In this document: piece by piece, positions 1-54,028 of the stretch | Position numbering within the stretch: position 1 is the first letter of the stretch | Layout of the letters: the number at the start of each line of letters is the position of its first letter | NCBI GenBank assembly: GCA_025517465.1 | Contig: JAOPKE010000004.1 | Span: 1 to 64,000, forward strand | Direction of reading: 5' to 3' | DNA length: 64,000 bases | Source: Halobacteria archaeon HArc-gm2 | GTDB taxonomy: Archaea; Halobacteriota; Halobacteria; Halobacteriales; Haloarculaceae | The notes under the pieces: model-generated | Seen by the model: the letters and a program-made list of their open reading frames with translations, nothing else | Told to the model about the DNA's origin: nothing | Databases searched by the model: none | Position numbers and translations under genes: made by a program

Positions 1-22
1 CGAGGGCTTTCGACGTGTTCGC
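1..22. repeat. Edge of a long inverted-repeat element (cut by window start)
   Basis: The first 11 bases read CGAGGGCTTTC, the outer end of the long inverted-repeat element found complete at 19147-19530 and 53492-53902. The match continues outward. The reverse complement of the window start reads AACACGTCGAAAGCCCTCG, and the same string lies across the left boundary of the copy at 53492. The rest of this copy would lie before the window. Confidence 0.65.
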
Positions 23-190
23 GTCGTCATTGGCACCAGTCTCACTGAGACACCAGATCGTTACAGACACTCCCTACACTGATCGGAAAGTCATCGCGCC
101 AGAAAGCGTCCCGTCGCCGAAATGCGGACCACTCACGCAACAAGGTCGCCAAACGTGCCCTTTTTCGTCGCCGGTAGCCAAACTCGGTCC

Positions 191-18991: not shown

Positions 18992-19146
18992 GGGACACTG
19001 TATCGGTCGTGTCGATAAAAGGGCCTGCACTCCTGAACGGATATTCGGACGGCTATCGGTTTCTCGGCGAGTGATCGGTACAGATCAACTACGTAGCGAT
19101 CTGGGGGAGTCGAAATCGTCGCACATAGCACGAAGTCAAAGAACTC

Positions 19147-19530
19147 GAAAGCCCTCGTCGCGCTCGACTCGCGCGGACCGCGCTGCGCGCCGTGGGTGCT
19201 TGCGGGTCCGTGCTTCCCCGAGCGCGCCTCGCCCTTTCAGTCCTCCAGGACTGCATTGCTCGCGCGATGAAACGCGCTCGCGATTGACTCCCCACTCCTC
19301 CCCGGATTCGGCGCGTCCGCGCCGAATTACGCGTCCTGACCGCTCCGCAACCGCGCGGCGGTCGGCCGGGAGGCCGTCTCGTCGGCCGACCAGGGGAAGG
19401 GCAGGGCGGGGGTGCCGTCCTGGAGGACTGAAAGGGCGAGGCGCGGTCGGGGAAGCCGGGACCCCCAAGCACCGGAACGGAGTGAGGAGCGCAGGGTGGT
19501 CCCCGCGACCCGAGCGCGCCGAGGGCTTTC
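19147..19530. repeat. Long inverted-repeat element, full copy 1 (384 bp)
   Basis: Starts GAAAGCCCTCG and ends CGAGGGCTTTC. The left arm (19147-19250) and right arm (19427-19530) are imperfect inverted repeats of each other over about 105 bases; the inner ends GCCTCGCCCTTTCAGTCC and GGACTGAAAGGGCGAGGC pair exactly. A ~175-bp core lies between. The core matches, in reverse orientation, the core of the copy at 53492-53902. Open frames across it are by-products of base composition, and no transposase is encoded. Resembles a MITE or a very long structured RNA. Confidence 0.75.
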
Positions 19531-19678
19531 TGGCTGTTGGGAGTCTCGTTTCTTCCAGCGCCAGCCAGAAGAATCACCCGTTCAACTCACAGTTGTACGC
19601 ACCGACAACGGAAGGACTGAACACCATCATCGAAACCAGTCCCGGAGATTCATTGACGAACACCTCGAAACCGCTGCC

Positions 19679-45858: not shown

Positions 45859-45914
45859 TTGCTGAGACCCACACTCGGATGTTGCTCGCTGAGCTAACCA
45901 CATAGGGCGGGGCT

Positions 45915-46011
45915 GAAAGGGGCCGAGCGGTCGCTGAGCGAGGCGAAGTAAGCACGTGAGCGAAGCGAACGCGCGCAACGAGCCGCAGCCAGCGAGCGCG
46001 AGGGGGCTTTC
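45915..46011. repeat. Half copy of the long inverted-repeat element
   Basis: GAAAGGGGCCGAGCGG at the left and GCGAGCGCGAGGGGGCTTTC at the right. Length 97 bp, close to the right arm of the full copies (~101 bp). It lacks a core and left arm. It lies between bolA and the glutaredoxin gene. Confidence 0.55.
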
Positions 46012-46105: not shown

Positions 46106-46447
46106 ATGACGTTCGAACCCGGGCAGGAGCTCTCGTCCGAGGAAGTCACCGAGCGAGTCGAGGAGACCATCGCGAACGAGGACGTCGTGCTGTTCATGAA
46201 GGGCACCGAGCTGATGCCCCAGTGCGGCTACTCGCGGAAAGCCCTGGGCCTGATCAAGCAACACCACGAGGACGTCGCGACGGTGAACGTGCTCGAAGCG
46301 ACCGAGGCGTACCGCGATGCGCTCTCGGAGTACAGCGGTCGCGAGACCATTCCGCAGACGTTCGTCGACGGCGAGTTCGTCGGCGGCAGCGACATCCTCG
46401 AACAGCTCGACGAGCAGGGCGACCTCGCCGAGACGCTCCAGGCGTAA
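46106..46447 (+). CDS. Monothiol-type glutaredoxin
   Basis: 113 aa. Active-site CGYS at residues 40-43 in ELMPQCGYSRKAL, the monothiol (CGFS-type) form; TIPQTFVDGEFVGGSD near 88 is the glutathione or substrate loop with conserved cis-Pro. Haloarchaea use gamma-glutamylcysteine, so the thiol partner may differ. The BolA gene upstream suggests an iron-sulfur role. Confidence 0.92.
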   Translation: MTFEPGQELSSEEVTERVEETIANEDVVLFMKGTELMPQCGYSRKALGLIKQHHEDVATVNVLEATEAYRDALSEYSGRETIPQTFVDGEFVGGSDILEQLDEQGDLAETLQA

Positions 46448-53357: not shown

Positions 53358-53491
53358 AGCCGTGATTCTGCGGACCGAGTGATAAGTGCATCTTGTGCGA
53401 TGTGGTCGGTCGTTGCAGCGGTGACGGAAACGGGCAGTGGTGAACGTCTCGCTTGTACGCCAGTGGTCGACGGAACTACCGCAAACACGTC

Positions 53492-53902
53492 GAAAGCCCT
53501 CGGCGCGCTCGACTCGCGCGGCTCGCTGCGCCCTTCGCTCACTCCGTTCGCTCCAGTGCTTGCGTCTCCGGGCGTCGTCGACCCCGCCTCGCCCTTTCAT
53601 TCCACCAGGTGGCCGCACCGCAGCCCTGCCCTTCCCCTGGTCGCGAGGCCCTCACAATTGTTCGGACACTCGCTCCCGGCCGACCGCCGGGCGGTTGCGG
53701 AAGGAAGCGTGTCGCGCCGACAGGCGCGACCGGGGAGGGGTGGGGAGTCAACCGCGAGCGCGGGGCGAAGCCCGCGCGAGTAACGCTGCCCTGGTGGAAT
53801 GGAAGGGCGAGGCGGGCTGCGGGAACCCCGGTCCATCAAGCACCGCAGACGAAGTCGAGGAGCACAGGTGGGCCGCGGGACCGCAGCCCGCCGAGGGCTT
53901 TC
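53492..53902. repeat. Long inverted-repeat element, full copy 2 (411 bp)
   Basis: Starts GAAAGCCCTCGGCGCGCTCG and ends CCGAGGGCTTTC. Left arm 53492-53601, right arm 53801-53902. The arms hybridise over their length. Inverted match extends beyond the ends: TACCGCAAACA before (about 53475-53487) and TGTTTGCGGTA after (53906-53916). The core has GCCCTTCCCCTGGTCG, GGCCGACCGCCGGGCGGTTG and GGGGAGGGGTGGGGAGTCAA, all matched in reverse in the copy at 19147-19530. Confidence 0.75.
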
Positions 53903-54028
53903 ATCTGTTTGCGGTATGATTATCGGTTCCTCATGAGCAGAAAGCCGAATCACCTGGAGATCCACTGTTCGCGAACCCAACTCCAGGCAATTGAAACGCA
54001 TATCAGGCACGACACACACGATACGATC

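Follow-up and report, generated by a model that had tools for sequence, protein, structure and literature searches.

Two long elements with inverted-repeat arms around a conserved core, located at 19147–19530 and 53492–53902 of a 64,000-nt stretch of DNA from Halobacteria archaeon HArc-gm2 (hereafter, the window), raise the question of what kind of element they are. The first-pass annotation of the window had proposed either a non-autonomous mobile element or a large structured RNA, with arms of about 105 bases that pair with each other. Our analysis leads us to conclude that each window copy is probably the relic of a non-autonomous transposable element, made of two outward units round a core, that was amplified and homogenised in its lineage; a role of the hairpins as RNA is less sure.

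Organization of the Window Copies

Both copies were recovered at these coordinates with the exact ends GAAAGCCCTCG / CGAGGGCTTTC, and alignment confirmed that the core lies in opposite orientations in copy 1 and copy 2. As limits of the element, these ends stood in part: the termini are exact, but conservation runs ~70 bp further outward. Each copy consists of two hairpin units of ~105 nt, placed back to back and facing outward, around a core of 170 nt. Both copies are situated between divergent genes and fold far below dinucleotide-shuffled controls (z -10 and -15), the shuffles never being as stable. A covariance model of the ~105-nt hairpin unit (R2) matched, in the window, the four arms and one diverged solo unit. 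The features are as follows:

19076..19146, unstranded: left outer flank of copy 1, conserved between copies, with a CGGTACAGATCA... end (profile match 19076–19597 and flank alignment)
19147..19243, minus strand: left hairpin unit of copy 1, reading outward (strand a on the minus strand); R2 81.7 bits, E 1.4e-15
19249..19418, minus strand: core of copy 1, with three covarying hairpins (alignments A3/A4 and covariation)
19425..19530, plus strand: right hairpin unit of copy 1, reading outward; R2 113.9 bits, E 1.3e-22
19531..19597, unstranded: right outer flank of copy 1, conserved between copies (profile match and flank alignment)
53463..53491, unstranded: left outer flank of copy 2, weakly conserved, with ACCGCAAACACGTC adjoining the terminus
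53492..53603, minus strand: left hairpin unit of copy 2, reading outward; R2 95.0 bits, E 1.7e-18
53610..53790, plus strand: core of copy 2, in the opposite orientation to copy 1
53796..53902, plus strand: right hairpin unit of copy 2, reading outward; R2 101.4 bits, E 6.9e-20
53903..53938, unstranded: right outer flank of copy 2, weakly conserved
1..88, unstranded: what the window edge leaves of a third composite copy, namely its right terminus and outer flank, with exact CGAGGGCTTTC at 1–11 and a flank-profile match at 13–88 (E 1.6e-4)
45910..46011, plus strand: diverged solo hairpin unit; R2 50.3 bits, E 9.2e-9

The solo unit is located ~95 bases upstream of a predicted gene at 46106, and IS6-type ends were not recognised around it. 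At the place corresponding to window positions 1–88, the genome of the sister species (G006) has an element (L103, 19196–19786). A search of the window against Rfam 15 at the gathering threshold gave 0 matches, and no tRNA or tmRNA was found by ARAGORN.

The Arms Are Independent Hairpin Units

The annotated length of the arms was about right (~105–125 bp), but the arms do not pair with each other: each ~105-nt arm pairs with itself. Arm identity was 81.3% within a copy, 81.4% between copies and 82.3% when left arms were compared with left arms. For none of the 94 arms was the partner from the same copy its nearest neighbour, and both arms of a copy pointed to the same nearest-neighbour copy in 1 of 47 cases. 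Covariation between arms was analysed in the innermost stem, in which facing variable positions paired at chance level (14-240, p 0.2; 18-236, p 0.09). Since the arms are no more complementary within than between copies, they are to be regarded as separate units. It is therefore very improbable that the two arms close a single ~105-bp stem and make the element one large structured RNA. The folding of the whole element as a long hairpin would suit such a stem, but the arm comparisons, the chance-level pairing and the fact that in most haloarchaea the unit stands alone all argue against it. What survives of the structured-RNA proposal is the fold inside each arm and inside the core, the fold between arms being unsupported.

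The Family in the Window's Own Genome

Further copies of the element do exist in the window's own genome (G000). The terminus GAAAGCCCTCG occurs exactly 220 times in its 4.25 Mb, versus 3 times for a reversed control pattern; whole-copy matches number at least ~40 among the matches listed, and 48 full copies, with 373–823 bp between termini, were recovered from 860 kb of genome stretches. Allowing for extra tandem termini, the 220 occurrences therefore extrapolate to a family of roughly 85–100 elements per genome. In the sampled part of this genome, no autonomous version with a transposase between inward-facing termini was found.

Many copies carry one to three tandem units of 51 bp outside the arms, each made of 19 bases of the terminus and ~32 of its flank, and some of them exact copies (e.g., L085 9843–9996, L080 14651–15238, and L079 9958–10060). 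Their number varies between orthologous sites of G000 and G006. A CRISPR-like reading of these tandem units was ruled out, as the 32-nt stretches are alike.

The outer flanks, conserved for ~70 bp past the termini, have separate left and right outer ends, and the conserved outer ends in this genome are GGTCAGTACAG. This sequence is also present away from hairpin units in G000, G006 and G004 (loci L375–L404); at some of these sites similar sequence follows it, and another transposon may share this end. At the right flank of L088 (contig C12 of G000), the composite element apparently abuts a tRNA-like 3' end, with GGGTTCGAAGTCC directly outside the outer end.

Distribution of the Hairpin Unit in Halobacteria

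A search for relatives in haloarchaeal genomes, suggested by the first-pass annotation, showed that the unit is present nearly throughout the class. Using R2 on 145 Halobacteria genomes of 58 genera, matches were obtained in 120 genomes and 50 genera; in a phylum-wide sample, R2 matched 10 of 11 Halobacteria genomes versus 0 of the 69 other genomes of the phylum. The number of units differs among genera, from 1 to more than 25 per genome (the upper counts being at least 27). A scan with an inner-arm pattern gave loci in Halosimplex, Halonotius, Halorussus, Haloparvum, Halapricum, Halobacterium, Haloarcula, Natronomonas, and others. Outside the window's lineage the units are mostly solo. An exact match to the 23-letter inner-arm pattern was not found in viral contigs.

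Units of different genera (L026 of G000, and L202, L210 and L207 of Halosimplex) contain a small double-hairpin insert, GGTTCGAGAGAGC..GCTCTCTCGTCATC..GAAAATCTCCGATTTTC..GACAGCGA, which is apparently a still smaller inserted module. Halosimplex loci (L141–L220) have a long conserved structured 5' module ahead of solo units (GGCGCGCGCTGTCGAGC..GGGCCGCTCGAAACAGTCGCGCGAGGGATGAG..CGGCTGGGGAGG), and its TGGGGAGGNGTG part resembles the core of the window's element.

Unit-Bearing Elements Are Non-autonomous IS6-Type Elements

In several genera, inverted repeats of the type GGYRGTGTTCAGATAAG bound the flanks of solo units. This end, searched for exactly, was present in 37 of 97 genomes, the reversed control giving 0. 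Among the loci analysed, elements of 216–382 bp with GGYRGTGTTCAGATAAG ends contain one or two hairpin units, and no open frame of at least 150 aa was found inside them. They co-occur with 697-bp elements that have the same GGYRGTGTTCAGATAAG ends and code for a transposase of 211–220 aa, which belongs to the IS6 family (NF033587, E ~1e-55 to 1e-59; PF13610). Both the unit-bearing and the 697-bp elements are flanked by 8-bp duplications, the kind that IS6-family elements produce (PMC7986276). These duplications were read directly at L257, L265, L266, L267, L268 and L270; among the 15 solo elements with both ends recognised, nine agreed at 7 or 8 of the 8 duplication bases, with a chance of ~0.0004 each. 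The window's genus also has such elements: two-unit elements of 382 and 372 bp, with intact GGYRGTGTTCAGATAAG ends and duplications, are present in G003 and G002. Since terminal repeats and 8-bp duplications are shared with the co-occurring IS6 transposons, the unit-bearing elements of 216–382 bp are non-autonomous IS6-type elements. The mobile-element option of the first-pass annotation is thereby supported for the family, through other haloarchaea that include the window's genus.

The outer ends in the window's genome scored a mean best of 11.23 against the IS6-type repeat, versus 10.73 (sd 0.64) for shuffled repeats. Inspection by eye of the sequence at the outer ends of both window copies revealed no target duplication, nor was one seen at the single near-species empty site (L075/L096). 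Given that these ends do not rise above shuffled repeats and that no duplication was recognised, the transposon origin of the window copies rests on their relatives, from which we infer that they are old relatives of IS6-type elements. A search of G000 for the IS240/IS6 DDE domain gave 0 matches; an IS6-type transposase is present in G001, G002, G003 and G006.

Comparison With Known Repeats and Elements

In general description, the family is like the BOX, ERIC and REPIN elements of bacteria, which form ~100 intergenic, hairpin-forming, modular and recombining copies per genome, but differs from them in size, sequence and host domain. The archaeal IS6-type insertion sequences of 697 bp share terminal repeats and 8-bp duplications with the unit-bearing elements and occur in the same class and genus; unlike them, they code for a transposase and have no hairpin unit between their ends.

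The family is also like the IS6-family MITEs of haloarchaea in host and size, and these too are non-coding, with IS6-type ends and 8-bp duplications. A review of the IS6 family lists two such MITEs, of 227 and 336 bp (PMC7986276), and MITEHarch3, an ISfinder entry, is named as a haloarchaeal IS6 MITE in PMC6807381. The passages on these elements in PMC6807381 and PMC7986276 do not mention a conserved internal structure, and the window copies differ from them in having no recognisable IS6-type ends. MITEHarch3 may be a member of the hairpin-unit family, the two being compared by description rather than by sequence. The MITEs, PATEs and SMRs of Haloquadratum walsbyi are likewise high-copy, transposase-free mobile repeats of a haloarchaeon (PMC3119063). 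In that account, the MITEs have nothing but terminal bases in common with their helper and the PATEs rely on IS605-type palindromes rather than IS6-type ends, and a class-wide covarying internal unit was not found in its passages on these repeats. More generally, the literature searched describes IS6 MITEs and Haloquadratum MITEs, and no description of the hairpin unit was found in it.

The Core and the Probable Homogenisation of Copies in Sister Species

The core has a much narrower distribution than the unit. Its model (R1) matched only G000 and G006 among the 145 genomes at the threshold used, with a weaker match of ~70% in G004. The first-pass annotation had regarded its conservation as more than a MITE needs, and this was borne out: the divergence of the core is not neutral-like, and a covariation analysis of the kind that had been recommended revealed three hairpins of its own with clear compensating changes. 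No strand preference of the core was found, and so no claim of an RNA function is made for it on that basis.

Empty sites, another recommended check, were found for both window loci. These sites are in more distant members of the window's genus. In G004, both window gene pairs are adjacent and have no full element, the gap being ~126 bp for the locus 1 pair and 107 bp for the locus 2 pair; in G001–G003, 58 bp and no full element lie between the locus 2 genes. In G006, whose flanking genes are mostly 87–96% identical to those of G000, full copies were at shared sites in 18 of the 19 cases tested, one site being empty in G006; this share is inflated, as G006 copies were the starting points for choosing the G006 stretches. 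Orthologous copies were 85.2% identical versus 84.3% for non-orthologous ones, and the ortholog was the best match in 2 of 17 cases. The ortholog signal rises outward through the flanks (67 to 79% versus 59 to 50%), and hairpin alleles recur in many combinations, across both species too. With sites shared, orthologs no more alike than other copies and an ortholog signal that grows outward, ectopic gene conversion between copies fits best as the process that homogenised the interiors of the G000 and G006 copies.

Elements that re-inserted independently at preferred sites could produce some of the same concerted-evolution signal. If intergenic hot spots had been hit independently time after time, this would account for the core orientation differing between some orthologous G000 and G006 copies. 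Such repeated insertion is quite improbable, however, as an explanation of the whole sister-species pattern in place of gene conversion: moving outward through the flanks, the ortholog signal increases smoothly, G000 has no IS6-type transposase, and near-identical recent copies were not found, the best whole-element pair being 90.6% identical.

Covariation of the Hairpin Unit, and RNA Versus DNA

In an alignment of 58 units, a closing stem GAAAG/CUUUC is followed by a near-invariant internal loop, GGCGA/GAGGG, and then by co-changing stems. Double-sided compensation was observed in 20 of the 31 pairs of the unit. Paired cells amounted to 96.8%, versus 82.0% in shuffled alignments and 23–52% when the partner was slid. 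The covariation score was 0.400 versus 0.137 shuffled and at most 0.044 slid, and was reached by 0 of 500 shuffles; the shuffles do not model relatedness, and the slid control does. In an unguided scan of all column pairs, the top Watson–Crick covariation fell in the stems of the unit. Halosimplex and others also have units of a second subtype (subtype B), whose interior differs while the ends are unchanged. Five unit-bearing loci compared with Rfam 15 at E up to 1 gave one chance miRNA match, far below threshold. The compensating hairpin unit is thus a structured family that has no entry in Rfam 15.

The strand was considered in order to decide between RNA and DNA. The default consensus fold is better on strand a (GGANTGAAAGGGCGAGG...GCCGAGGGCTTTC), at -43.7 versus -19.4 kcal/mol. 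Under the strand-a fold, G.U cells outnumbered A.C cells by 66 to 10; since this fold itself permits G.U, the count was repeated on a strand-neutral, Watson–Crick-only structure. The excess persisted by cell (27 versus 9, p 0.004) and was not significant by column (7 versus 4) or in subtype B (11 versus 6), so that the claim for RNA is weakened. On balance, the hairpin unit acting as an RNA rather than as a DNA hairpin is favoured, on the strength of these pairing preferences. If the unit is an RNA, strand-a transcript ends would be expected near GGANTG and GGGCUUUC.

We put forward, as a tentative reading, a class-wide structured RNA of Halobacteria, outside Rfam, that would travel as a passenger of IS6-type transposases in MITE-sized elements and would be selected, in the host or in the element, for its function as RNA, with the ~100 two-headed copies of one lineage recombining as a shared pool of alleles. 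The same elements might instead be ordinary MITEs with palindromes that matter as DNA, for example as cruciform or single-strand structures in transposition or recombination, or whose perfect pairing is maintained by template-switch repair; in either case the hairpins would lack an RNA function. IS6-type ends and duplications, a core that folds equally on both strands, and hairpin alleles built of shared blocks in many combinations, as recombination predicts, are all consistent with such DNA palindromes. Even so, this alternative is somewhat unlikely. Archaeal IS6-type transposases are DDE enzymes that work on short terminal repeats, and a class-wide internal fold is therefore not required for movement. 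The excess of G.U over A.C and the near-invariance of unpaired positions, such as the internal loop, also speak against it.

Placement Relative to Host Genes

Paired units face outward in 57 pairs, inward in none and in tandem in one (47 of the outward pairs being from own-genome stretches and 10 from elsewhere). Neither two-unit copies (0 of 47) nor solo units (0 of 130) overlapped genes predicted with a home-made codon model. Between genes on the same strand, solo units run in the direction of the genes in 41 cases versus 19 against (p 0.006), and the next gene lies equally far away (median ~106) whether its start or its end faces the unit. A partner gene beside the units, as for TnpB guide RNAs, was ruled out, as no gene family recurs there.

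These data bear on a further alternative, namely that the unit is a domesticated regulatory RNA, either a cis element kept by the host (as leader, insulator or 3' end) or a small RNA belonging to adjacent genes. The strictly intergenic placement, the co-direction with same-strand gene pairs, and the sites common to two species with genes ~92% identical would suit domestication. We nevertheless consider it unlikely, because no recurring gene family lies beside the units, gene starts and ends are equally distant, copy numbers vary widely in most genera, and the orientation bias could reflect selection against harmful insertions.

A Model for the Element and Its Biological Meaning

Returning to the reading of the window copies as transposon relics with outward hairpin units, the following course of events would account for them. 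Unit-bearing elements would be moved in trans by an IS6-type DDE transposase. The window's lineage would have amplified the two-unit version and then lost the transposase, after which ~85–100 copies would have stayed in place, with gene conversion between them homogenising their interiors. Less surely, the hairpin may work as RNA when transcription exits the element outward. The most likely action would be in cis at the edge of the element, shielding neighbouring genes from crossing transcripts or processing such transcripts. That the hairpin acts in cis on transcripts leaving the element is our best guess, made with confidence well short of even, because of the outward orientation of the units and their tendency to be co-directional with the genes beside them; such an action would account for the selected fold and for the outward-facing pairs.

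MITEs are usually viewed as ends without content, and here the interior holds a compensating hairpin fold, whose conservation in 50 of the 58 sampled genera suggests selection on the interior of a transposable element. The hairpin unit provides concrete, countable loci for functional testing, and the R2 model makes haloarchaeal RNA-seq data directly searchable for it. The ~100 copies that are common to two species and yet homogenised would be a clear case of concerted evolution of dispersed intergenic repeats in archaea.
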